From Alistipes sp. (lineage in GTDB: Bacteria; Bacteroidota; Bacteroidia; Bacteroidales; Rikenellaceae): a stretch of DNA of 64,000 nt. Below the pieces are notes generated by a model. It saw only the letters and a program-made list of their open reading frames with translations. It did no database searches and was not told the origin of the DNA. The stretch lies in NCBI GenBank assembly GCA_017465055.1, contig JAFTWZ010000018.1, positions 1-64,000 on the forward strand, read 5' to 3'. Below, one piece after another: positions 18,782 to 40,704 of the stretch. The first letter of the stretch is position 1. Each line of letters begins with the position of its first letter. The position numbers and the translations under genes were made by a program.

Positions 18782-18822
18782 TGAGCAATGAATGTTGGCC
18801 TTACGGCCAGCGCTTAAAAAGA

Positions 18823-18862
18823 TTAGGGGTTGACTTAGACATCGCGTCTAAATCAACCCCTA
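18823..18862. terminator. Bidirectional hairpin between convergent genes
   Basis: ttaggggttgacttagac pairs with gtctaaatcaacccctaa with a single mismatch around a 5-nt loop, between the convergent ZIP transporter and FKBP genes. Confidence 0.85.
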
Positions 18863-18882
18863 ACCTATAAATAACCTGAGAC

Positions 18883-19905
18883 CTACTCCTCAGGGTTAAC
18901 CTTGAGAAGCTCAACCTTGAAAGTCAACGCCTCGTTAGGGCCAATATCTGCACCAGCGCCACGCTCGCCATAAGCAAGCTCCGAAGGAATCCAGAGCGTA
19001 ATCTGGCCACCCTCGCCAACGAGTTTCATACCCTCGGTCCAACCCTTGATAACCTGGTTAAGACCAAACGAGATTGGCTCATTGCGCTCGTAGCTTGAGT
19101 CGAAGATATTGCCGTTGCGAGTCTTACCCTCGTAGTGTACCAATACCACATCCTCATCCTTTGTAGCCTTAACCTCTGAGCCCTGGCGGTCGATGCGATA
19201 CAAAAGACCCGACTCGGTCTTCTGAACGCCCTCCTCCTTAGCAACCTCCTCGAGCCACTTAGCCGAGAGCTCCGTATTCTCCTTCATAGTCTTCTCGCGC
19301 TCCTTCATAGCCTTCTCGCGCTCCTCCTGAGCCTTGCGCTGCTGCTCGGCAACATAGCGCTGAGTAAAGTCGCGCATCTGAGCCTCAGAGAGACGAAGAA
19401 GAGTATCAGCCTGCTCTACGCTCTCGAGAGCCTGGCAGTCGTCGATAGCCATAACCAATGTCTTGATATCTACCTTCTCATTGAGACCCTTAGCCATAGC
19501 ACCGAAGTCAAGGCCTATCATCTCCGATACTGACTCACGTGTAAAGACGTCATCGTACAACGCTGGCAGTGGCTCGAGAGTATCTGGGCGGTCAGTCTCT
19601 ACCATATCCTGCATACGCTTAGCGTGGAGATACTGCATATAACGGCCATACTGGAACTCCATCATCTTCTGACGATTCTCCATAACCTTTGGATCCTCGA
19701 GGCTACCATTCTTGTAGAAATCCTCCATAGTGTTTACAACGATATCTCTGTCGACATCCATACCCTCCATACCGAAGCGCATAGACATACCGACGTTGAC
19801 ACCTACACAGTAAGAGAGCGTATCGATCCCTCTCGAGAAGCTGCTACCACACGAGGTAGCAAGCGTAGCAGCAGCTACTGCTGCAAGTAGAAATACTCTT
19901 TTCAT
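18883..19905 (-). CDS. FKBP-type peptidyl-prolyl isomerase lipoprotein
   Basis: 340 residues. The lipobox is LATSC with Cys 19. Residues about 25-215 form the helical dimerisation part typical of Mip/FkpA proteins, ending in a charged coiled coil (AQEEREKAMKEREK). Residues about 240-338 are the FKBP domain, with VLVHYEGKTRNGNIFDSS, GWTEGMKLVGEGG and IPSELAYGERGAG. It helps folding of exported proteins at prolyl bonds in the periplasm. It lies 56 bp after the AsmA-like gene on the same strand. Confidence 0.92.
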   Translation of the reverse strand: MKRVFLLAAVAAATLATSCGSSFSRGIDTLSYCVGVNVGMSMRFGMEGMDVDRDIVVNTMEDFYKNGSLEDPKVMENRQKMMEFQYGRYMQYLHAKRMQDMVETDRPDTLEPLPALYDDVFTRESVSEMIGLDFGAMAKGLNEKVDIKTLVMAIDDCQALESVEQADTLLRLSEAQMRDFTQRYVAEQQRKAQEEREKAMKEREKTMKENTELSAKWLEEVAKEEGVQKTESGLLYRIDRQGSEVKATKDEDVVLVHYEGKTRNGNIFDSSYERNEPISFGLNQVIKGWTEGMKLVGEGGQITLWIPSELAYGERGAGADIGPNEALTFKVELLKVNPEE

Positions 19906-19961: not shown

Positions 19962-22448
19962 CTACTCCGAAGCAGCCTCCGAGACTCCATCCGAATCTAT
20001 CGCCGCCTCTTGCTCCTCGGGCTCTGTTGTAGCATCCTCGACGTCGGTAAAGAGTGTCTCACTCTCCTCCGCAGCCGACTCTTCATCCTCTGCCGTAACC
20101 TCCACCTCATTGCCATCGATGACCAGCGACACGACATATCTGTCCTTGCCACCGTAGCCCTTAATATCATCCAACGTTACATCCTGAACTACAAAGGCAC
20201 TATCGGCAAGCTCCTTATGCTGGAACTCTACGTAGCGCGACACTATGCGGTTATAGTGACCGAGCATCTGCGCGAGCTGCTGATCAGCCAAATCGCCGTA
20301 GAGCAGCTTGGCCTTAGCCTGCGTCGACATACCTGCAGGCGAAATGCCACGATTTATGAGCACCGAGTCGGCATAAGCACGTATATCGCTACCAGAGAGT
20401 TTCATATCCTTGATGCGCACAAAATCAAGCATATCCAGATATGCACTATCGCGATCTTTCGAGGCGTTGTAGCAGGCCATCTTAAGGTTAAGCTCCGAGA
20501 TGCGCTGCACGGCACGCTTGTAGTTAACCTTAGGCGTCAGCCTTACGCGCAGTGCAGTATCGCTCTTAAGCGTCATAGCCATAGTGTCGATACGGGCGTA
20601 GTGCTCCGAGTCGAGTCCCGTGGCCAAGATATCGATGTCGATATGCCTGAAGGCATCCTGCTTATCATCAGTCATCCACTCGAAGGGCGAGGCTGCAACC
20701 TTGAGTAACAGATTACCAATAGCACGCCATATAACCTTGCGTAGCGAGAACTCGGGCGATGCGATGTTTCCAGAGATAGGTAGCTCGACGTCGATATGTT
20801 TATTGCGGTCGGTAAGCACGTAGATGCCGAGTTTCATAGGCACGTCGTACTCGACGTCTATATCACGATTCTTCTTGCCCACAGCGAGGTTATAGGTGCC
20901 GAGTTGGTTTACGCCGCTAAGCTCGCCATTGGCAATGACATTCTGCGAGCGGAAGGTCATATTTCCCGACGTCACAGGGAAGGCCGTAAAGTGCTCGATA
21001 TAGGTCGATAAGCCCTGCATATCGACATTCGAGAGCGTAGCCAATATATTCTGGTTGTAGAAGTCTGCAAGCGACCCCTCCCAGACCACCATCGCCGAGC
21101 CCTGCTTGGGCAGCTGAGCACGAAGCGATATTTGGTTTTTACCCATCAGCTCAAAGTTGGTGCTGCGTATAGATATATCGCTCAGCGAGTAGTCGAAGGG
21201 GCGGTGCATCGTATTATCTACGTAGCGCAGCTCGCCACCCGTAAGGCGCAGCGTATCGATGGTGAGCACCATATCGCTCATCGGAGCTACCTCTTCGGAG
21301 GTGGTCACGGTCACACGCTCGCGAACATCGTAGATATCGTCACCAATCAAGTCGCTTGACGTCTCAACCGAGAGCTCTGGCTCGCCGTAGAAGAGCGTGT
21401 CGAAGTTAGTGCCGCCGTCGGAATTAAAGCATATCTGCGTAGCGTAGCCATCAGCCTTCACCGCCCTAAAGTCGTATACCTGCTGCTCGATATTTAGCCT
21501 ATCGAACGCTAAGGTTAGGCTCTCGGCACTAAATATGTTGCCGCCATCGGGGCCCAGTACCGCAATATTCTCGCCATCGACCTCTCCGACGATATCCATA
21601 GCCAAGATATCCGAGAGATTACCACGTAGCGAGCAGTCGGCAGTGACCACACCCTCGAGGCTCTCGAGGTTGACCGCCTCAACTACATATTTATATATAT
21701 CCTCGAGCACAAAGCCTCGCACCTGACCCTCGAAACAGAAGTCGAGCGTCGATAGCGATAATCCAAGCGCACCGCACAACGCCGCCCTATCGTTTACCAT
21801 CATCGAGGTCTCTATATCCATAGGCTCATCCTCGAGAATAAGGCGTGGCGTGGCAAGATTTACGCCCGTAAGCCTCCAATATTGGTCAAGCACTGTATCG
21901 TAATAGACCAGCGAGCTATTCTCTGCGGCAATATTCTCTATATCTATGCGCCAGCTACTCTCGTCGCTCTCCTCCTCGACATCATCACTCGAGTATGTCT
22001 CCGCAATAAAGCCTATGAGCGAGTCGAAGTTAAAGGCCTCGGGACTCTGCACGATGTTGGCACTAAGCTCTCCGAGCCACACACGCGGAATAGCCACGTG
22101 GCTATCGAGAAGCGCCCATACATCGACCTCGGTCTCTAACTTGCCGACAGATGCAAAAATATCGGCATCGTCCGCCTCATATAGCGTAAGATTCTCCACC
22201 GATACTTCGCCAGTGAACAGCTTGACACGAAGGTTATCCATCGTAAGCTCACGGCCAAGAAGCTCTCTATCGTGCTTCTCGACATATGCTTCGACAATAG
22301 GGCCGAGCATAGCTACAACAACACCAATGGCCAAGACCAGTACAGCAATAAGGCCAAGAAGCACATAGAGGCATATCCTCCACACGCTTCGACCAGAATT
22401 CTGCGGCGTCGGTTTATTAGTATCTTGTTCTACACTCTTGCCACTCAT
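19962..22448 (-). CDS. AsmA-like / DUF748 envelope protein
   Basis: 828 residues. One N-terminal transmembrane helix (residues about 27-52) is followed by a long periplasmic region. The first part (LGRELTMDNLRVKLFTGEVS, LENL-type repeats) and the middle part match AsmA/DUF748 proteins, which are long beta-groove proteins connected with lipid transfer between membranes. The C terminus is an acidic low-complexity tail (EESETLFTDVEDATTEPEEQ). It follows the short-chain dehydrogenase gene of the steroid cluster by 51 bp and could be co-transcribed, but a shared function is not shown. Confidence 0.8.
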   Translation of the reverse strand: MSGKSVEQDTNKPTPQNSGRSVWRICLYVLLGLIAVLVLAIGVVVAMLGPIVEAYVEKHDRELLGRELTMDNLRVKLFTGEVSVENLTLYEADDADIFASVGKLETEVDVWALLDSHVAIPRVWLGELSANIVQSPEAFNFDSLIGFIAETYSSDDVEEESDESSWRIDIENIAAENSSLVYYDTVLDQYWRLTGVNLATPRLILEDEPMDIETSMMVNDRAALCGALGLSLSTLDFCFEGQVRGFVLEDIYKYVVEAVNLESLEGVVTADCSLRGNLSDILAMDIVGEVDGENIAVLGPDGGNIFSAESLTLAFDRLNIEQQVYDFRAVKADGYATQICFNSDGGTNFDTLFYGEPELSVETSSDLIGDDIYDVRERVTVTTSEEVAPMSDMVLTIDTLRLTGGELRYVDNTMHRPFDYSLSDISIRSTNFELMGKNQISLRAQLPKQGSAMVVWEGSLADFYNQNILATLSNVDMQGLSTYIEHFTAFPVTSGNMTFRSQNVIANGELSGVNQLGTYNLAVGKKNRDIDVEYDVPMKLGIYVLTDRNKHIDVELPISGNIASPEFSLRKVIWRAIGNLLLKVAASPFEWMTDDKQDAFRHIDIDILATGLDSEHYARIDTMAMTLKSDTALRVRLTPKVNYKRAVQRISELNLKMACYNASKDRDSAYLDMLDFVRIKDMKLSGSDIRAYADSVLINRGISPAGMSTQAKAKLLYGDLADQQLAQMLGHYNRIVSRYVEFQHKELADSAFVVQDVTLDDIKGYGGKDRYVVSLVIDGNEVEVTAEDEESAAEESETLFTDVEDATTEPEEQEAAIDSDGVSEAASE

Positions 22449-22499: not shown

Positions 22500-23318
22500 T
22501 CACTTCTGCCACCTCATAGTAAACGACCTAAGCGGACGAATCAGGAAGCCAGGCAGATAGTTACATACGGGTATCAGCAAGCGGAACCACCAGTCGGGGA
22601 CAACCACCCTACGACCCTTGAACATAGCATTCAGAGCGCGACGAGCACAGCTACGCGGCGACATCAATATACCCCACTTGACGCCGAAGCGCTGCAGGCT
22701 CTTAGAGAGTCCGTAGAGATCGGTGGCTATGCCTGCAGGACATATCGCCGTAGCCGTCACTCCCGTGCCACGTAGCTCCTTGGCAAAGGCCTCGGTAAAG
22801 CTCTTGACGTAGGCCTTGCTGGCGCTATATGCCGCCAAGCCTGGGAAGGGCATCCATATCGAGTATGATGACATATTGAGCAGGTGGCCCTTGCCACGCT
22901 TGCGCATATCCTCGCCATAGAGACGGCAGATGGACGTAAGCGTGAAGTCGTGCAGCAGGAGCATCCTCTCGAGGCGCTCTAACGGTGTATTTAGTATGTC
23001 GCAAAACGAGAAGATACCGGCGTTGTTAACCACCACGTCGAAGCTGTAACCCTCAGACGTAGTCCACGCGTACAGCTCTCGTGCTGCTCCCTGCGAGGCC
23101 AAATCCATAACCTTCGTATTGCACTTAACCTTGTAGTGCTGCTCGATAATCATCGCCTCGCTCTTAACCTCCTCTAAGATGTCGACCATAAGCAGATTAT
23201 ATCCAAGCTCGGCAAGACGCTCAGCATACTGACGACCTATGCCTAAAGCCGCGCCAGTAACCATAGCCCACGCCTTGCCACGAGCAACCTCGCCCCTATT
23301 TTTCTTGCACCAAAACAT
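22500..23318 (-). CDS. Short-chain dehydrogenase, probable hydroxysteroid dehydrogenase
   Basis: 272 residues. The Rossmann motif VTGAALGIGRQYAE, the NAG motif (VVNNAGIF) and the catalytic Ser (NMSSYS) and YSASK are intact, so it should be an active NAD(P)-dependent dehydrogenase. The C terminus is hydrophobic and basic (residues about 240-272), suggesting membrane association. It is the third gene after a 5-alpha-reductase-like and an old-yellow-enzyme-like gene, the order known for bile-acid 5AR-5BR-3beta-HSDH clusters of gut Bacteroidales. By that context it would interconvert a 3-keto and a 3-hydroxy steroid. The substrate is inferred from context only. Confidence 0.85.
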   Translation of the reverse strand: MFWCKKNRGEVARGKAWAMVTGAALGIGRQYAERLAELGYNLLMVDILEEVKSEAMIIEQHYKVKCNTKVMDLASQGAARELYAWTTSEGYSFDVVVNNAGIFSFCDILNTPLERLERMLLLHDFTLTSICRLYGEDMRKRGKGHLLNMSSYSIWMPFPGLAAYSASKAYVKSFTEAFAKELRGTGVTATAICPAGIATDLYGLSKSLQRFGVKWGILMSPRSCARRALNAMFKGRRVVVPDWWFRLLIPVCNYLPGFLIRPLRSFTMRWQK

Positions 23319-23335
23319 AGCGATGTCGTTCCCTG

Positions 23336-24583
23336 CTACTTAATCTTATTTATCTCCTTCCACAGACGCTCGGGGATATGCTCCTTGCAGTTGTGGCAAC
23401 ACTGCATATCTACCGAGTACATACGCGCCATACAGTAGTCGCGATGGTCGCAACCGCTACGTGTCGACATATCGCCCGCCTTAAGTTTATTGACAAACGC
23501 AGGGTCGTTAACCAGTGCTCGGGCCATCTGTACAAGCTCGAAGCCCTCGTCGAGCACGCGCTCAATGCCCTCGCGCGATACCAGACCGCCGACATATACC
23601 AACGGGCCCTTCAAAGCGGCGCGGAACTTCTTCGCATTCTCCAAGAAGTAGCACTCCTCGAAGTCGTACTGCTTGATGAGCCACTGGCCGAAGAGCGAAA
23701 CCACAATCTTCTGCAGCCACTCGTTCCAGCCCATATAGTAGCCCATAGTCTTTGTAGGGATACGGCCACGCATTACGGCCATAGGTGCCTTAGACACAAA
23801 ACCCGATGAGAGCACGATGCCGTCGACACCGAATGTCTCAATCTGCTTAGCTATCTCGATAGACTCGGGCACCTGGATACCACTCTTAAAGCCATCCTCC
23901 ATATTATGCTTAACAAGCACACCCATACCGCGCTTGCGGGCCGCCTCCATAACCTCCTCGAGGCACATATTCATAAAGCGCATACGATTCTCGAGCGAGC
24001 CTCCATACTCATCGCGGCGATGGTTGGTATATGGCGATAGGAACTGCGAGATAAGGTAACCGTGTCCTGCGTGCACCTCCACAGAGTCGAAACCAGCGTT
24101 GTAGGCCACTTCTACAGCCTTACCAAAATCCTTAGCGAACTCCACAATTTCGGTCTTACGCATACGGCGGTGGAAGGTTGGCGAGTAGAGGTTAAAGCCG
24201 TTAGAAGCCGACACAGGGAAGCTACCAGCCGTAGACCAATGGGTCATATTTCCGCAATGGCCGAGTTGGATACCCACAGCCGCACCCTCGTTGTGCACAG
24301 CATCGGTAAGGTCGCGCAACGCAGGGACAATCTCGTCGCGCAGCCACAGCTGCTTGTTGAACGATATGCCGCTACGATTTATCGAGGCATAGGCTACGGT
24401 AGTCATACCCACGCCACCCTTAGCCACGCTTACGTGGTAATCCTTGAGTGCCTGGGTAGGCGAGAAATCCTTGCCCATAGATTCGAAGGCTGCCGAGCGT
24501 ATCACTCGGTTGCGAAGCGTCACGCTTCCCAGTTTGTAAGGAGTAAATAGCTTTGACTCCTCCAGTCTCTTCTTACTGTCCAT
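23336..24583 (-). CDS. Old-yellow-enzyme-type reductase, probable steroid 5-beta-reductase
   Basis: 415 residues, the single TIM-barrel FMN domain of the OYE family: TPYKLGSVTLRNRVIRS at the start, HCGNMTHWS, and the active-site HAGHGYLISQFLSPYTNHR with YGGSLENRMRF. The C terminus has several cysteines (SGCDHRDYC, CCHNC) that may bind an iron-sulfur cluster, as in the related BaiCD/BaiH enzymes, though it lacks their extra FAD/NADH domain. It would reduce an enone such as the delta-4 bond of 3-oxo-steroids. It sits 10 bp after the 5-alpha-reductase-like gene and 17 bp before the dehydrogenase gene. Confidence 0.85.
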   Translation of the reverse strand: MDSKKRLEESKLFTPYKLGSVTLRNRVIRSAAFESMGKDFSPTQALKDYHVSVAKGGVGMTTVAYASINRSGISFNKQLWLRDEIVPALRDLTDAVHNEGAAVGIQLGHCGNMTHWSTAGSFPVSASNGFNLYSPTFHRRMRKTEIVEFAKDFGKAVEVAYNAGFDSVEVHAGHGYLISQFLSPYTNHRRDEYGGSLENRMRFMNMCLEEVMEAARKRGMGVLVKHNMEDGFKSGIQVPESIEIAKQIETFGVDGIVLSSGFVSKAPMAVMRGRIPTKTMGYYMGWNEWLQKIVVSLFGQWLIKQYDFEECYFLENAKKFRAALKGPLVYVGGLVSREGIERVLDEGFELVQMARALVNDPAFVNKLKAGDMSTRSGCDHRDYCMARMYSVDMQCCHNCKEHIPERLWKEINKIK

Positions 24584-24593
24584 ATATGGTGAT

Positions 24594-25376
24594 TTAGTAG
24601 ATAAACGGTATTATACGCTTGCGCTTCAGGCTGGTAAACTCCTCGCCAAACTCACGCTCATAGCGCTTATAGAGCGATGCTGAGCGAGGGCCGAGGTTGG
24701 CAAATGTCCACCACGCAAAGACCACACCTGCCCACGACCACGAGGCGATGGCGAAGCCCACCCACTCCATAAACTCGCCGAAGTAGTTCGCCGACGAGAC
24801 GAAGCGGAACATACCTCCCTTTGGAATGTAATGTTTCGTATCTCCTGGTTTGCGCAGATTACGTATCACATAGTCCGAATGAATATTTGTAATCATACCG
24901 AAGAGGAAGACTACAGCGCCGATGTAGATATATGGCTTCGACATCCAGTCGTCGTAGTAGCCCATCTCGGGGGCATAGTAGAATATCCACCCGCCCTGCA
25001 TAACGGCATTTAACGTATTGAATATCATACCCATAAGCACGATACCTATAGGCATCTTCGATTTTCCGCGCATAAGCATTGGGAAGATAAACGACCTCTG
25101 GAAGTAGTGCAGTTCGAACATAAGGAAGAGCACGAGTGGAGCTGTCTGGTAGGCGTAGTCCGACATCGACCACAACGCCGCCATAGCGAAGAATACGGGT
25201 GACTCCATAAGTACCCAGCCGAGTTTATTAGGCACCGGGAAGCCGAACTTTGGGTTAAATAGGTAGCCATAGCCAGCCTCCACGAAGTAGAGCGCCACGA
25301 AGACCACAAGAGCCACTGCCGCCATAACCACGAGGAACGTATTGTAACACTCCAATGATATCAGTTCTGAAAACAT
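24594..25376 (-). CDS. Steroid 5-alpha-reductase-like membrane protein
   Basis: 260 residues, about six to seven transmembrane segments. The C-terminal part (FRFVSSANYFGEFMEWVGFA, LGPRSASLYKRYEREFGEEF, KRIIPFIY) is the diagnostic region of the 3-oxo-5-alpha-steroid 4-dehydrogenase family, which binds NADPH and reduces the delta-4 bond of 3-keto steroids. It is the first gene of the three-gene set and has a good promoter 107 nt upstream. In gut Bacteroidales such a gene with a 5-beta-reductase and a 3-beta-dehydrogenase converts 3-oxo-delta-4 bile acids to allo- and iso-forms. Confidence 0.87.
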   Translation of the reverse strand: MFSELISLECYNTFLVVMAAVALVVFVALYFVEAGYGYLFNPKFGFPVPNKLGWVLMESPVFFAMAALWSMSDYAYQTAPLVLFLMFELHYFQRSFIFPMLMRGKSKMPIGIVLMGMIFNTLNAVMQGGWIFYYAPEMGYYDDWMSKPYIYIGAVVFLFGMITNIHSDYVIRNLRKPGDTKHYIPKGGMFRFVSSANYFGEFMEWVGFAIASWSWAGVVFAWWTFANLGPRSASLYKRYEREFGEEFTSLKRKRIIPFIY

Positions 25377-25482: not shown

Positions 25483-25512
25483 CAAAGATACTAAAAAAAG
25501 TTAGAAAGGCAA
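25483..25512 (-). promoter_or_regulatory. Promoter of the steroid reductase operon
   Basis: On the minus strand TTG (25512-25510), a 19-nt spacer and a perfect TATCTTTG (25490-25483). The start codon of the 5-alpha-reductase-like gene is 107 nt downstream, leaving a long 5' leader. Confidence 0.75.
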
Positions 25513-25620: not shown

Positions 25621-25710
25621 GTCAAGATGAGGTAAGATGGGGTAAGATGGGGTAATATGGGATAATATGAGTTAATATGGGTTAATATGGGTTACAATAA
25701 GTTAATATAT
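25621..25710. repeat. 10-bp-period tandem repeat, locus 1
   Basis: Nine consecutive 10-base units, from gtcaagatga through ggtaagatgg to gttaatatgg and gttaatatat, keep exact 10-base phase while the bases drift. A reverse-complement version of the same unit family occupies 33281-33500. Confidence 0.85.
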
Positions 25711-25812: not shown

Positions 25813-25861
25813 CACAAAAAAAAAAGACTACCATAGGCTGCAGTGCAAACCTATGGTAGTC
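25813..25861 (-). terminator. Terminator of the nitroreductase gene
   Basis: gactaccatagg (25826-25837) pairs perfectly with cctatggtagtc (25850-25861). The run of A at 25815-25825 becomes a T-run on the minus strand. Confidence 0.9.
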
Positions 25862-25901: not shown

Positions 25902-26540
25902 CTACTCGACGTAGTAAGCCTTCGAGGCATCTCTTGCAGGAGCCTCAGGCACGTCGCCTGCGGGATAGCCAAAGGCGATAGCAACGAGGAGTTTGTAGCC
26001 CTCGGGAAGAGCCAAACGCTCCATATATGGCTTAGCCGCCTCGCTATTCATAACTGGCACTACGCTACCCAAGCAGCACGAGCCGATGCCCATACTCCAC
26101 GCCGAGAGCATCATATTCTCCGACAACAGACCACTGTCGTACTCACCGCTATAGCTCTCCTCAGGGCAGGCAATAAAGGCCACCGTGGGGGCATTACGGA
26201 AGAAGTTGCGGAAGCCAGGCTGCTCCTTGAGCGCAGGGTTCTGCTCTACGGCAATAGCCGTAACACCATCGAGGAACGCCTTGTCGTCGACAACCCTAAC
26301 GGCCCAGGGCTGCATATTCATAGCACTGGGAGCGTAGATACCACACTCGATAATCGTAGCCATCTGCTCGCGACATACTGGCTCTTCCTTATAGTCGCGC
26401 ACCGAGCGGCGCGTCATAATCGTCTCGATGACTGCATCTACACTACTAACCTCCGTATCGCTATTGCAGCAAGTACCACAACATCCCGAAAAAGCAACTG
26501 TCGCAGCGAGGAGCGCGCCGAGTTTAAAGAACTTATTCAT
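25902..26540 (-). CDS. Nitroreductase-family lipoprotein
   Basis: 212 residues. An unusual feature is the lipoprotein signal (VAFSGC, Cys 20, followed by more cysteines) in front of a nitroreductase fold. The FMN contacts are visible: TRRSVRDYKEEPV, APSAMNMQPWAV and the C-terminal IAFGYPAGDVPEAP. The enzyme would reduce a nitro, quinone or similar compound with NAD(P)H, but outside the cytoplasm NAD(P)H is not expected, so a different electron donor or a non-standard role is likely. A start two codons further upstream (26546) is equally possible. Confidence 0.85.
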   Translation of the reverse strand: MNKFFKLGALLAATVAFSGCCGTCCNSDTEVSSVDAVIETIMTRRSVRDYKEEPVCREQMATIIECGIYAPSAMNMQPWAVRVVDDKAFLDGVTAIAVEQNPALKEQPGFRNFFRNAPTVAFIACPEESYSGEYDSGLLSENMMLSAWSMGIGSCCLGSVVPVMNSEAAKPYMERLALPEGYKLLVAIAFGYPAGDVPEAPARDASKAYYVE

Positions 26541-26557
26541 AGGCAATCTGTTATATT

Positions 26558-26640: not shown

Positions 26641-27885
26641 TTATTTATAAATCTTACCAGCCAACACAATCTGACGAATCACTGGCGTCTGATGAGCATA
26701 TGGCAGGTAGGCAAGCGATGGCAGAGGCTTCGTAACGAAGAAGTTAGCCACCTTACCGCGAGTGATTGAGCCATAGTCGCGACTCTCGCCCATAGCACAC
26801 GCCGAGTTAAGCGTTGCGGCGTTGAGTGCCTCGGCAGGCGTCATCTTCATCTTGATAGAGCCGAGCGACACCACAAAACGCATATTGCCCGAAGGTGCTG
26901 TGCCAGGGTTAAAGTCCGAGGCCAGAGCCACGGCCAAGCCAGCGTCAATCATCTTACGTGCTGGAGGGTATGTGATACCGAGGAAGAAGGCACAACCTGG
27001 CAACATCGTAGGCATAGTATCCGAGCCACGCAGCGCCTCGATCTGCTCATCGCCCATAGACTCGAGGTGGTCGACCGAGAGAGCCTTATGCTCAACGCCT
27101 ACCTCCACGCCACCAGAGATAGCCAGCTCGTTGGCGTGAATCTTCGCTCTGAGGCCATACTTAGCACCCGTCTCGATAATTTTTGATGTCTCCTCGACCG
27201 TAAAGAATCCCTTGTCGCAGAATACGTCGACAAACTCTGCCAAGCCCTCCTTAGCCACCGCAGGAATCATATCGCGACACACGTGGTCAACGTAGTCTGC
27301 CTGGCGACCCTTATAGGCACGACCTACGGCATGAGCTCCGAGGAACGTGGCACGCACGGCGATAGGCGACGTCTGGCGGATACGACGTATGACGCGCAAA
27401 ATCTTAAGCTCGTCCTCGAGCGTAAGGCCATAGCCCGACTTTATCTCCACAAGGCCCGTTCCCATACGTATAATCTCATCGACACGCTCCATAGCCTGAC
27501 GGTAGAGCTCATCCTCCGACGTCTCGTGAAGGCGATCTGCCGAGTTTAGGATGCCACCACCGCGCTTAGCTATCTCCTCATACGAGAGGCCGTTAATCTT
27601 ATCTAAGAACTCCTGTTCGCGGCTACCAGCATAGACGATATGTGTGTGAGAGTCGCAAAACGAGGGGAAGAGCCAGCCGCCCTCGGCATCGAGGACTTCG
27701 CAACCCTCGACCGAGGGAAGCGAGTCCATAGTGCCATAATCCTTAATACGCTCGCCATCGGTCAAGAGCCACGCACTCTCCAAAGTCGCAATCTCTGCCA
27801 TAGCACGACCTTCGACCTTGAGGCGATGACTCTCATCGATACCAACAAGCGTACCTATGTTTTTAACAAGTAGGCTCATAGTCAT
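26641..27885 (-). CDS. hutI: Imidazolonepropionase
   Basis: 414 residues of the amidohydrolase superfamily. FCDSHTHIVYAG holds metal ligands His 80 and His 82; further motifs are EIKSGYGL, KIHANELA and LASDFNPGTAPS. It opens imidazolone-propionate to N-formimino-glutamate, the third step of histidine degradation. The start overlaps the end of hutH by about 20 bases, pointing to coupled translation. ATG codons at 27885 and 27879 are both possible. It is the last gene of the hut operon, followed at once by the 80-bp palindrome. Confidence 0.96.
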   Translation of the reverse strand: MTMSLLVKNIGTLVGIDESHRLKVEGRAMAEIATLESAWLLTDGERIKDYGTMDSLPSVEGCEVLDAEGGWLFPSFCDSHTHIVYAGSREQEFLDKINGLSYEEIAKRGGGILNSADRLHETSEDELYRQAMERVDEIIRMGTGLVEIKSGYGLTLEDELKILRVIRRIRQTSPIAVRATFLGAHAVGRAYKGRQADYVDHVCRDMIPAVAKEGLAEFVDVFCDKGFFTVEETSKIIETGAKYGLRAKIHANELAISGGVEVGVEHKALSVDHLESMGDEQIEALRGSDTMPTMLPGCAFFLGITYPPARKMIDAGLAVALASDFNPGTAPSGNMRFVVSLGSIKMKMTPAEALNAATLNSACAMGESRDYGSITRGKVANFFVTKPLPSLAYLPYAHQTPVIRQIVLAGKIYK

Positions 27886-29362
27886 TGAGGAATTGTACCG
27901 ACGTGGCGATGTGTGGATACATCACCGTATCGTTATCGACAAATGGCACAACCTTGCGGTATGCCTCGAACATAGCCTCAACAGCTGCCGACGACTTAAG
28001 CGATGTCATCTGGTGGCGGAACTCGAGCGCCTGAGCCGAGTTCATAAGCTCGATAGCCAAAACACGCTCGGTATTCTGCACCACCTTCCATAGCTTGGTA
28101 GCGGCATTCGAGCCCATACTTACGTGATCCTCCTGACCCTGCGACGATGGTATAGAGTCGCACGATGCTGGCCAGCACAAGCCCTTAGACTGGCTGACAA
28201 TAGAGGCTGCTGTGTACTGAGGAATCATAAAGCCTGAGTTAAGGCCTGGGTTGGCAACGAGGAAGTTAGGGAGGTTGCGAGCACCAGAGATGAGCTTATA
28301 TGTACGACGCTCCGAGATGTTACCAAGCTCCGCAACGGCGATAGCCAAGAAGTCCATAGCTACGGCGATAGGCTGGCCGTGGAAGTTACCTGCCGAGATT
28401 ACCTCGTCGCTGTCGGGGAATACCGTTGGGTTATCGGTAGCAGAGTTAATCTCTGTCTCCAAAACCGATGCTACGTAGGCGATAGTATCCTTCGATGCGC
28501 CGTGTACCTGAGGTATGCAACGGAACGAGTATGGATCCTGAACGTGCTGCTTAGGCTGCTGACCTATCTGGCTGCCTGCCAAGATTGTGCGGAAGTTACG
28601 CGCCGTCTCAATCTGGCCATTGTGGGGACGAATGGCGTGTACGTTATGCTCGAATGGCTCCATACGGCCATCGAAGGCGTCGAGCGACATAGCTCCGATG
28701 TGGTCAGCGAGGCGGCTGAGGCGCTGTGCGTTAATCAACGAGTAAACGCCGTAGGCCGACATAAACTGCGTGCCGTTAAGCAGCGCAAGGCCCTCCTTCG
28801 AGCAGAGCGTGATAGGCTCCCAGCCCATCTTCTCCATCATCACGCTACCCTCGACAACCTCGCCGTCGATCTCCACGTGGCCGAGGCCCAGCAATGGCAA
28901 GCACATATGCGCCAGAGGCGAGAGGTCGCCCGAAGCACCGAGCGAGCCCTGCTCATATACCACAGGGATGATGTTGTTGTTGAACATCTCGATAAGACGC
29001 TCTACGGTGATAAGCTGCACGCCCGAGTGGCCGTACGATAGCGACTGCACCTTGAGCAGAATCATCAAACGAGCTATCTCCTTTGGCACGCGCTGGCCCG
29101 TACCACAAGCGTGCGACATCATAAGGTTCTTCTGAAGCTGCGACAAACCCTCCTTCTCTACCGAGATATTGCACAACGAGCCAAAGCCCGTAGTGACGCC
29201 ATAGATAGGACGACCAGCATCCTCCATCTTCTTATCGAGATAGGCGCGGCACTTCTCGATGCGAGCCTTAGCATCGTCGCTAAGAGCGAGCTTGTAGCCC
29301 TTCGTTAAAATCTCCTCTACACGAGCAATAGTGAGACGCTCGGCACTGATATAATGAATCAT
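27863..29362 (-). CDS. hutH: Histidine ammonia-lyase
   Basis: 499 residues. The tripeptide that forms the electrophilic MIO cofactor, Ala143-Ser144-Gly145, is present in GSLGASGDLSPLAH. The catalytic Tyr is in YGVTTGFG at residues 54-61. It removes ammonia from L-histidine to give urocanate, the first step of the pathway. Its position between hutU (25 bp upstream) and hutI (overlap) fits an operon. Cytoplasmic homotetramer in the family. Confidence 0.97.
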   Translation of the reverse strand: MIHYISAERLTIARVEEILTKGYKLALSDDAKARIEKCRAYLDKKMEDAGRPIYGVTTGFGSLCNISVEKEGLSQLQKNLMMSHACGTGQRVPKEIARLMILLKVQSLSYGHSGVQLITVERLIEMFNNNIIPVVYEQGSLGASGDLSPLAHMCLPLLGLGHVEIDGEVVEGSVMMEKMGWEPITLCSKEGLALLNGTQFMSAYGVYSLINAQRLSRLADHIGAMSLDAFDGRMEPFEHNVHAIRPHNGQIETARNFRTILAGSQIGQQPKQHVQDPYSFRCIPQVHGASKDTIAYVASVLETEINSATDNPTVFPDSDEVISAGNFHGQPIAVAMDFLAIAVAELGNISERRTYKLISGARNLPNFLVANPGLNSGFMIPQYTAASIVSQSKGLCWPASCDSIPSSQGQEDHVSMGSNAATKLWKVVQNTERVLAIELMNSAQALEFRHQMTSLKSSAAVEAMFEAYRKVVPFVDNDTVMYPHIATSVQFLNDYEPTC

Positions 29363-29387
29363 AACTATTTCGTTTTATGCTATTAGA

Positions 29388-31403
29388 CTATTTATTCTCG
29401 TTATACACCTTCTCGATAAGCTCCATATCGGCCAAGTTAGGCATCGTAACTCGAAGCAGCGGCGTGCGCTCCATCTGACGCTTAATGGCAAACATAGCGC
29501 CCTCGTTGCGTGCCCAGCTACGACGTGCGATACCGTTGTTTACGTCCCAGAGCAACATCTCCTCGATATGGCGAGCCGAGTCCTCCGAGCCATCGATAAC
29601 CATACCAAAGCCACCGTTGATAACCTCGCCCCAGCCTACGCCACCACCGTTGTGGATAGATACCCACGTAGCACCGCGGAACGAATCGCCGATAACGTTA
29701 TGTACAGCCATATCGGCGCAGAACTGCGAGCCGTCGTAAATATTCGAGGTCTCGCGGTATGGCGAGTCTGTACCCGACACGTCGTGGTGGTCACGACCGA
29801 GAACTACAGGAGCCGATATCTCACCACGCTTGATAGCCTCGTTGAAGGCCAGAGCTATGCGTGTACGGCCCTCAGAGTCGGCATAGAGGATACGAGCCTG
29901 CGAGCCTACAACGAGCTTATTCTGCTTAGCCTCGCGAATCCAGTGGAGGTTATCCTCGAGCTGACCCTGAATCTCGGCAGGCGACTCCTTGAGCATCTCG
30001 GCAAGCACCTCGGCAGCCAAGCGGTCAGTAACCTCGAGATCCTCCTCCTTGCCCGAGGTACATACCCATCGGAAAGGACCGAAGCCATAGTCGAAGAACA
30101 TAGGGCCCATAATATCCTGAACGTACGATGGGTAGCGGAACTTGCCATCGGCTGTCATAATATCGGCACCTGCACGCGACGACTCCAAGAGGAAGGCGTT
30201 ACCATAGTCGAAGAAGTACATACCACGAGCCGTGAGCTTGTTGACTGCTGCCACGTGGCGGCGCAACGACTCGCGCACACACTCGTGGAAGCGCTCAGGC
30301 TCCTCGGCCATCATACGGTTAGACTCCTCGTATGAGTATCCCACAGGGTAGTAACCACCAGCCCAGGGGTTATGAAGCGATGTCTGATCCGAGCCGAGGT
30401 CTACGTTAATCTCCTCGTCAGCAAGGCGCTCCCAGAGGTCTACGACGTTGCCCACATAGGCAAACGACACCACCTCCTTGTTAGCTACCGCCTGCTTAAC
30501 GCGTGGCATAAGCTCGTCGAGCGACGAGTAGAGCTCATCTACCCAGCCCTGCTTGTGGCGCTTCTCCGCTGCGGCAATGTTAACCTCGGCGGTGATGCTC
30601 ACCACGCCCGAGATATTACCAGCCTTAGGCTGAGCACCCGACATACCACCGAGACCTGCCGTTACGAACAACATACCGCGCAAATCCTTCTGGCCAGGCT
30701 TCATACGCTTACGCGCAGCATTCATCACCGTGATGGTCGTACCGTGAACGATACCCTGAGGGCCGATGTACATATACGAACCTGCCGTCATCTGACCATA
30801 CTGCGACACACCCATAGCATTAAACCTCTCCCAGTCATCCTGCGACGAGTGGTTAGGGATAACCATACCGTTGGTAACGATAACACGTGGAGCATCCTTG
30901 TGCGATGGGAATAGGCCGAGAGGGTGACCAGAGTACATAACTAAGGTCTGCTCGTCGGTCATCTCGGCAAGGTACTTCATAGCGAGGCGATACTGCGCCC
31001 AGTTCTGGAACACCGCACCATTACCACCATAGGTGATAAGTTCGTGAGGATGCTGAGCTACGGCCTTATCGAGATTATTCTGTATCATCAGCATAATGGC
31101 TGCCGCCTGGCGTGAGCGTGCTGGATAGTCGTCTATCGAGCGAGCATACATCTCATACTCGGGGCGCAGGCGATACATATAGATACGGCCATAGGTCTTA
31201 AGCTCCTCGAGGAACTCTGGAGCAAGCTCGGCGTGATACTTCTCGGGGAAGTAACGCAGGGCATTGGCCAGGGCGAGCTTCTTCTGCTCGTCGGTAAGGA
31301 TATCCTTACGCTTAGGAGCGTGGTTGGCCTGTGGGTCATAGGCACGCTTTGCGGGTAGTGGGTCGGGGATACCAGCCAATATATCTTTCTGAAAATCTGT
31401 CAT
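29388..31403 (-). CDS. hutU: Urocanate hydratase
   Basis: 671 residues, the longer form found in Bacteroidetes (bacterial proteobacterial forms are about 550). NAD-binding and active-site motifs are YGGNGAVFQNWAQY, MYIGPQGIVHGT, GGMSGAQPKAG, FRWVCTSGKEEDLEVTD (the catalytic Cys lies here) and GRDHHDVSGTDSPYR. It adds water to urocanate to give imidazolone-propionate, using tightly bound NAD. It is the second gene of the operon, 40 bp after ftcD. Confidence 0.97.
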   Translation of the reverse strand: MTDFQKDILAGIPDPLPAKRAYDPQANHAPKRKDILTDEQKKLALANALRYFPEKYHAELAPEFLEELKTYGRIYMYRLRPEYEMYARSIDDYPARSRQAAAIMLMIQNNLDKAVAQHPHELITYGGNGAVFQNWAQYRLAMKYLAEMTDEQTLVMYSGHPLGLFPSHKDAPRVIVTNGMVIPNHSSQDDWERFNAMGVSQYGQMTAGSYMYIGPQGIVHGTTITVMNAARKRMKPGQKDLRGMLFVTAGLGGMSGAQPKAGNISGVVSITAEVNIAAAEKRHKQGWVDELYSSLDELMPRVKQAVANKEVVSFAYVGNVVDLWERLADEEINVDLGSDQTSLHNPWAGGYYPVGYSYEESNRMMAEEPERFHECVRESLRRHVAAVNKLTARGMYFFDYGNAFLLESSRAGADIMTADGKFRYPSYVQDIMGPMFFDYGFGPFRWVCTSGKEEDLEVTDRLAAEVLAEMLKESPAEIQGQLEDNLHWIREAKQNKLVVGSQARILYADSEGRTRIALAFNEAIKRGEISAPVVLGRDHHDVSGTDSPYRETSNIYDGSQFCADMAVHNVIGDSFRGATWVSIHNGGGVGWGEVINGGFGMVIDGSEDSARHIEEMLLWDVNNGIARRSWARNEGAMFAIKRQMERTPLLRVTMPNLADMELIEKVYNENK

Positions 31404-33280: not shown

Positions 33281-33500
33281 ACATTTTAACTCATCGCATC
33301 CCATTTTAACCCATCGTAACTCACAATTCATTTTAACTCATCATACCCCATTTTAACCCATCGTAACTCACAATTCATTTTAACTCATCATACCCCATTT
33401 TAACTCATCGTAACTCACAACTCATTTTAACTCATCTTAACCCATTTTAACCCATCGCATCCCATTTTAACCCATCGTACCCTATCGTAACTCACAACGT
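33281..33500. repeat. 10-bp-period tandem repeat, locus 2
   Basis: Units such as ccattttaac, ccatcgtaac, tcatcttaac and ccatcgcatc follow one another at about 10-base spacing, mostly CCATNNTAAC, the reverse complement of the gttaNNatgg unit at locus 1. A higher-order 47-bp repeat is also present (starts at 33310 and 33357). There are no spacers of the CRISPR kind. Confidence 0.85.
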
Positions 33501-40118: not shown

Positions 40119-40704
40119 GTGAACTCTGCAATTATTAAACATCGTCATTGCGATAGTCATAGGCTCGCGGCAACCATTAAACATCGTCATTGCGAGAAAT
40201 TGCATCATACAGCGGCAATGATACCATATCGGGTCTATGCAATTTCGTGGCAATCTTCCATTTTTTATACCCCCTCTCTGATACTGATGCACAATGTATT
40301 AATCACACTTAGCACCGACCTATTAACAGCGGAAGATTCCCACGTCGGAGCATAGAGGCTTTATCACGCTTTGCACGCTCCTACTTGCTCCTCCTCGGAA
40401 TGACTAATTCAATATCAGTTCCTCCTCGGAGCAACGATTTTAAAACATCGTCATTGCGAGAAATTGCATCATACTGCGGCAATGATACCATATCGGGTCT
40501 ATGCAATTTCGTGGCAATCCTCCTTTGTTTATACTTCCGAACTGATACTGATGCACAATGTATCAATCACACTTAGCACCGCACTACAAACAGCGGAAGA
40601 TTCCCACGTCGGAGCATAGAGGCTTTATCACACCTTGCACGCTCCTACTTGCTCCTCCTCGGAATGACGAATTTAATTACACTCCTCCTCGAGGCGACGC
40701 TTCA
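40119..40704. repeat. REP-like tandem 264-bp repeat
   Basis: Two adjacent copies (40181-40444 and 40445-about 40704) share most bases. Each carries acatcgtcattgcgagaaat near its start and ctcctcctcggaatgac near its end, with a palindrome ttgcatcata/accatatcgg/gcaatttcgtggcaat and a second stem with ttcccacgtcggagcatag. Two further short partial copies of attaaacatcgtcattgcga precede them (about 40134 and 40176). The layout resembles repetitive extragenic palindromes with gtcattgcgag cores. The GIY-YIG gene ends exactly at their edge. Confidence 0.8.

Follow-up and report, generated by a model that had tools for sequence, protein, structure and literature searches.

Gut Bacteroidales are known to carry a gene cluster for a steroid 5-alpha-reductase (5AR), a 5-beta-reductase (5BR) and a 3-beta-hydroxysteroid dehydrogenase (3-beta-HSDH), as described in reviews that are cited here from excerpts (PMC10382948, PMC9645264, PMC12692668). 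In Parabacteroides merdae, where the last gene is predicted to encode a 3-beta-HSDH, isoallolithocholic acid (isoalloLCA; LCA, lithocholic acid) is made (PMC10382948), and the flat bile acids, allo and iso-allo, are reported to act on immune cells and Gram-positive bacteria (reviews, PMC10382948 among them). Presence of 5AR in Alistipes has already been published: in the excerpted part of PMC6069880, the chicken Bacteroidetes isolates lacking it are only two Odoribacter and P. distasonis, with five Alistipes tabulated. Here we describe a cluster of this known type in a stretch of 64,000 nucleotides (the window) from Alistipes sp. (assembly GCA_017465055.1, contig JAFTWZ010000018.1, positions 1 to 64,000; contig C9 in our numbering of the 2.13 Mb assembly, which is 84% complete), in which the third gene encodes a short-chain dehydrogenase/reductase (SDR) of another family than in Tannerellaceae clusters.

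Organization of the cluster

The cluster is read from the minus strand, starting with the 5AR, and consists of the following features, in which OYE denotes an old yellow enzyme, FMN flavin mononucleotide and Fe-S iron-sulfur:

24594-25376, minus strand: 5AR, SRD5A-family membrane 5-alpha-reductase, 260 amino acids (Pfam Steroid_dh, 2.7e-45)
23336-24583, minus strand: OYE-family FMN reductase, 415 amino acids, proposed 5-beta-reductase/dehydrogenase (Pfam Oxidored_FMN, 1e-57)
23399-23452, minus strand: cysteine tail (OYE residues 378-395), C-x-H-x3-C-x10-C (hhalign against the Fe-S segment of Escherichia coli FadH)
22500-23318, minus strand: SDR of the family named SDR-A here, 272 amino acids, catalytic S151/Y164/K168 present (Pfam adh_short, 3.2e-35)
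19962-22448, minus strand: AsmA/DUF748-like membrane-anchored protein, 828 amino acids (Pfam DUF748, 8.9e-78)
18883-19905, minus strand: FKBP-type peptidyl-prolyl isomerase, 340 amino acids, with a lipoprotein-like start (open reading frame and Pfam scan)

Coordinates, order and Pfam matches confirm the 5AR, OYE and SDR genes that the original prediction had placed at 22500-25376, and its gaps of 10 bp (5AR-OYE), 17 bp (OYE-SDR) and 51 bp (SDR-AsmA) are exact; a further 56 bp separate AsmA from FKBP. According to the ratio of nonsynonymous to synonymous differences (pN/pS) between the window and 7 relatives, the OYE is under strong purifying selection and is the best-conserved gene of the cluster (0.04-0.07), with 0.11-0.17 for the 5AR, 0.20-0.29 for the SDR and 0.38-0.51 for AsmA. 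We consider the whole to be, with fair probability, the Alistipes form of a gut Bacteroidales module that isomerises ring A of steroids, and its product would be a 3-oxo-allo or allo compound.

Two dehydrogenase families in the third position

The window shares the 5AR-OYE order with the Parabacteroides merdae-type cluster, and its 5AR and OYE look orthologous to the P. massiliensis counterparts (58% identity for each), whereas its third gene comes from another SDR family and is followed, in the subclade of the window, by AsmA and FKBP. In a tree of SDR sequences, SDR-A and the second family, SDR2, fall into two distinct, fully supported clades on very long stems. The tree has 134 rows, was built by a quick method with midpoint rooting, and holds 134 of the 166 SDRs extracted from tblastn matches, incomplete sequences and 28 near-duplicate loci having been left out. 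The identity between the window SDR and the SDR2 of P. massiliensis is 22.5%, no better than that with generic SDRs. Among 59 Tannerellaceae genomes searched, 11 have a 5AR, and all 11 hold SDR2 and no SDR-A beside it; elsewhere in these genomes SDR-A found one match at 36% and two at 31% identity, and otherwise generic matches or none. The three Tannerellaceae loci L204, L205 and L209 have SDR2 directly after the 5AR, with no OYE there. The third gene had been predicted to be a 3-beta-HSDH as in Parabacteroides, an assignment that the tree, the low identity and the uniform presence of SDR2 in Tannerellaceae speak against; since the window SDR belongs to a different family, neither the 3-beta-HSDH label nor the iso-allo product can be carried over by homology. 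By family, the P. merdae 3-beta-HSDH should be an SDR2.

Within the genus of the window, 30 of 32 loci have SDR-A only and the other 2 are cut off, and genome-wide searches in 10 genomes of the genus that are 97-99% complete gave no SDR2 relative at 1e-10. Such a relative is present in both genomes of the sister genus g214 (G499 and G537, where SDR-A adjoins SDR2) and in none of the one genome of g26. The clusters of Barnesiella sp. An22 (L164), Sanguibacteroides (L180) and Heminiphilus (L169) have the same first three genes, with SDR-A 41-47% identical to that of the window, and differ from those of its genus in also carrying SDR2. In a first set of 45 loci from other genera, both SDRs were found in 15, SDR-A in 10, SDR2 in 8, the OYE alone in 5 and neither OYE nor SDR in 7; the corresponding numbers for the 32 loci L158-L189 are 14 with both, 8 with SDR-A, 3 with SDR2, 4 with the OYE alone and 3 without OYE. 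A simple reading of this distribution is that the ancestor had both SDR-A and SDR2, and that SDR2 was lost in Alistipes.

The catalytic Tyr and Lys and the second Ser are kept in all 119 SDR-A rows. The best PDB matches of the window SDR included no HSDH, and the best 25 of its 205 NCBIfam matches no named model for a steroid dehydrogenase. Its second strand is followed by Asp46, which we take to be a sign of an NAD(H)-type cofactor. Position 46 varies among SDR-A rows (Ser 66, Gly 22, Asp 20, Ala 10, Cys 1), so Asp46 is uninformative for the family, and the cofactor was dropped as a clue to the direction of the SDR. SDR2 has Arg at or next to the equivalent position in 30/42 sequences. As a leading guess, SDR-A would be a dehydrogenase that acts at C3 but differs in stereochemistry or direction.

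Distribution in Alistipes and other Bacteroidales

The closest named relatives of the 5AR (85-88% identity) come from metagenome-assembled genomes labelled 'Alistipes sp.' from the hindgut of yak, goat, water buffalo and sheep, and the window organism is a member of an Alistipes group of Rikenellaceae mostly known from animals. The 5AR was found in 32/37 genomes of the genus, that of the window counted, and the 5 genomes that lack it are 72-86% complete. The OYE was found, at 1e-100, in 135/200 genomes of the family, 104 of them same-genus (own included), with 8 same-genus non-matches among those listed. In the 31 other same-genus loci the OYE always follows the 5AR, and the SDR comes next in 29, the sequence ending inside the OYE in the remaining two; with these counts, the gene order is more than chance. 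Order-wide, 90/393 genomes have a 5AR at 1e-20, and the matches fall into two tiers, 48 non-own matches at 50-64% identity and the rest lower, at no more than 42% over full length. From the upper tier outside the genus, 45 of 48 matches were taken in and three left out, and in 38 of these 45 loci the OYE lies downstream of the 5AR on the same strand within ~3 kb. Layouts were determined by tblastn; a simple gene caller failed to find the 5AR in 25/167 loci, so that its neighbour-family counts are lower bounds. Because of these genome and locus counts, the cluster is to be seen as a near-universal trait of the genus that is widespread in gut Bacteroidales.

The flavin reductase and its cysteine tail

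The OYE is 93-97% identical within the nearest group, and its substrate-site motif H-x-G-H-x-Y-L is found in 131/134 distinct OYE sequences. The best single PDB matches are YqjM-like and align mainly to the barrel, which is also matched by the BaiCD model. All 134 distinct full-length sequences carry C-x5-C-x10-C at the C-terminal end, and two places after the first tail Cys, 128 of them have His, 4 Arg and 2 Asn; against the four-Cys Fe-S motif C-x2-C-x3-C-x11-C, it is the second place that is taken by His, Arg or Asn. By hhalign, OYE residues 8-409 align with FadH 2-377 at 99.8%, and the tail falls on the Fe-S segment of FadH. In a MAFFT alignment the first two tail cysteines stand on FadH Cys338 and Cys342 and the last one on Cys361, not Cys354, with Cys335 unpartnered; we take Cys335 to be the first Fe-S ligand and Cys354 the usual fourth one. 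Compared with FadH and BaiCD, the OYE has the common FMN barrel and a tail on the Fe-S segment, but is only 415 amino acids long, has one Fe-S cysteine position replaced and lacks the C-terminal domain for flavin adenine dinucleotide (FAD) and NAD(P)H, the protein stopping 20 residues after the last aligned Cys. The alignment along FadH and the position of the tail make it likely that the OYE descended from an Fe-S flavoenzyme and was cut before the FAD half, and an Fe-S cluster is possibly retained in the tail.

The steroid 5-alpha-reductase

The 5AR had been predicted to be of the steroid type, and this holds: among solved structures, the bacterial 7c83 (1.8e-55) and human SRD5A2 (7bw1, 9.9e-44) are far ahead of the fatty-acid enoyl reductase art-1 (7.4e-7), in a set of structure matches that holds no SRD5A3-type polyprenol reductases. 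The identity as a fatty-acid reductase was ruled out on these values. The match to 7c83 and 7bw1 extends over the whole length and includes the active-site residues, E58 and Y91 aligning with E57/Y91 of human SRD5A2, presumably its catalytic Glu and Tyr; both are invariant in 25 sequences. The window enzyme and other cluster 5ARs differ from 7c83 and human SRD5A2 in the residue preceding the Glu, which is Met (Met57 in the window) instead of Gln, and the motif W-x2-M-E-x-P-x-F is found in 149/155 distinct cluster 5ARs. The Firmicutes enzymes BaiP/BaiJ, for which the same reaction is known as is proposed for the window 5AR, are soluble FAD-dependent flavoproteins (PMC9645264), unrelated to membrane 5ARs. 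A remote second match in the same genome (C31:96153-96758, 26% identity, 2.1e-4) may be a membrane protein of the DUF1295 type.

Candidate promoter and leader

Three candidate signals flank the genes:

25483-25490, minus strand: TATCTTTG, Bacteroidota-type -7 element, its first base 114 nt before the start of the 5AR (motif scan)
25826-25861, minus strand: terminator-like hairpin of 14 pairs followed by T10, between a nitroreductase gene and the 5AR (terminator scan)
18821-18865, minus strand: terminator-like hairpin of 20 pairs followed by a T run, directly after FKBP (terminator scan)

The motif TAnnTTTG, presumably the Bacteroidota-type -7 promoter motif, occurs only once (25483-25490) on the minus strand between the upstream hairpin and the 5AR start, so that the single promoter of the original prediction is plausible, but the motif is common by chance, with 41 copies in the window against 24 expected. 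Past the hairpin upstream of the 5AR, the next strong one is that behind FKBP. Terminator-like sites number 7 against 5.9 expected, and single sites are therefore weak evidence. In 12/12 close loci TAnnTTTG stands 71-141 nt before the 5AR; of 22 other loci from the Alistipes group, 15 have it at a distance of 13-46 nt, and in 7 it was not seen. As to the predicted long leader, the upstream gap is indeed 525 bp, but the leader itself is likely ~100 nt, which is longer than in other genus members, and has no conserved sequence: no conserved element was found among the 12 close loci, and no Rfam family was found in the window at gathering thresholds, hence no known riboswitch in the leader. The upstream gap contains ~10-bp tandem units (AAGATGGGGT-like) at 25624-25708.

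Proposed function and alternative explanations

Everything said here on the function of the window copy is inferred. In the proposed module, the OYE would convert a 3-oxo-5-beta steroid to the 3-oxo-delta-4 form and back, the membrane 5AR would reduce the delta-4 bond to give the flat 5-alpha (allo) form, and the SDR would act on a steroid hydroxyl or ketone, most likely at C3. As the Parabacteroides clusters that make iso-allo forms have another SDR, we would expect, with less certainty, a 3-oxo-allo or allo and not an iso-allo bile acid as the product. This fits the activity table of PMC12692668 better than iso-allo would, as A. onderdonkii converts 3-oxo-delta-4-LCA to 3-oxoalloLCA there, and in the excerpted table P. 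merdae is among the 3-beta-HSDH taxa and A. onderdonkii is not. The same module could instead make an iso-allo bile acid if SDR-A had become a 3-beta-HSDH by convergence: it occupies the same slot as the SDR of Parabacteroides clusters, its catalytic residues are kept throughout, and unrelated SDRs can share one reaction. The generic level of identity to the P. massiliensis SDR, the very long branch between the clades, the A. onderdonkii entry and the 29 loci with SDR-A and SDR2 side by side, which suggest different jobs, make this explanation unlikely. As for the substrate, a bile acid is likely. Natural substrates could also be steroid hormones, cholesterol-derived or plant 3-oxo-delta-4 sterols, with bile acids as side substrates, as the SRD5A enzymes nearest to the 5AR act on hormones, record titles place many carriers in the hindgut of ruminants, horses and birds, PMC6069880 names 'bile or steroid hormones', and related Firmicutes OYE reductases act on hormones (excerpt of PMC12238238); as the Bacteroidota assays described in the excerpts of PMC10382948 and PMC12692668, A. 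onderdonkii included, used 3-oxo-delta-4-LCA, we hold this to be somewhat unlikely. The preferred reading, a bile acid module with a 3-oxo-allo or allo product, is supported by the homology and order of the genes, the frequency of 5AR and OYE in the genus, the purifying selection on the OYE, the split between the SDR families and the review entries, and also by a secreted-looking PF02275 protein (bile salt hydrolase/penicillin acylase family) in the same genome (C31:155849-156769, L200). Bile acids added in the rumen raised allocholic acid and Alistipes, a correlation only (excerpt of PMC11193847). Several points weigh against this reading. Beyond the Alistipes-like set, 29/77 loci have both SDR types and 18 have SDR-A alone, so SDR-A is not special to Alistipes; the SDR type of P. 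merdae is deduced from 11 Tannerellaceae, and Odoribacter laneus and Bacteroides dorei, which make iso-allo forms too, lie outside the comparison; absence of A. onderdonkii from the HSDH rows of the review table is a weak argument; and PF02275 also covers penicillin acylases.

The AsmA neighbour that had been pointed out is real and recurs, but is an accessory gene in only part of the genus. It follows the cluster in 16 distinct loci, window included (with one gene between in L142 and L150), in 12 of which FKBP is present as well, and the five genes probably form an operon in the subclade of the window. A role of AsmA and FKBP in handling a lipid-like substrate or in the envelope would be a guess. 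The chances are about even that both are hitch-hikers with their own envelope function and no steroid role: AsmA was found in only 7/24 genomes of the family searched (4 beside the cluster, 3 elsewhere), 15 of the 17 without it being same-genus, it evolves fast, as its pN/pS indicates, and FKBP is a general folding factor. On the other hand, besides the recurrence at or one gene from the cluster, all 14 loci examined have short SDR-AsmA gaps (-14 to 102 bp) on the same strand with neither a terminator-like site nor TAnnTTTG; as a terminator after the SDR was detected in only 3/26 loci without AsmA, its lack before AsmA says little.

Neighbouring genes and repeats

Upstream of the 5AR lies a nitroreductase-family protein with a lipoprotein-like N-terminus (25902-26546), and further upstream lie what we take, from the sequence, to be hutI, hutH and hutU of histidine degradation (26641-31403); the loci L033, L110 and L111 have the same hut neighbours. 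An array resembling the repeats at 25624-25708 is also present at 33282-33491, and a 264-bp unit in ~2 copies (91% matching) at 40179-40691.

Implications

Beyond the original prediction, the exchanged SDR, the cysteine-tailed half flavoenzyme and the recurrent AsmA partner define a variant of the cluster. No report of two SDR families, of the OYE cysteine tail or of AsmA beside the cluster was found in a literature search that left subscription papers mostly outside and did not include AsmA by name. A wider joint reading, which we offer tentatively and think has a minor chance of being right, is that two unrelated SDRs swap behind a constant 5AR-OYE pair and set the C3 stereochemistry, Alistipes with SDR-A only yielding 3-oxo-allo/allo and Parabacteroides with SDR2 iso-allo products, and that the OYE, as half of an Fe-S flavoenzyme, exchanges electrons with a partner protein via the cysteine tail and does not use NAD(P)H directly. 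If true, electron exchange with a partner protein would permit the OYE to run as a dehydrogenase. Furthermore, if the SDR type predicts which flat bile acid is made, a genome could reveal the product profile of its species, and the blanket annotation of such clusters as '5AR-5BR-3-beta-HSDH' would give too high a count of iso-allo producers, with the common genus Alistipes wrongly included.

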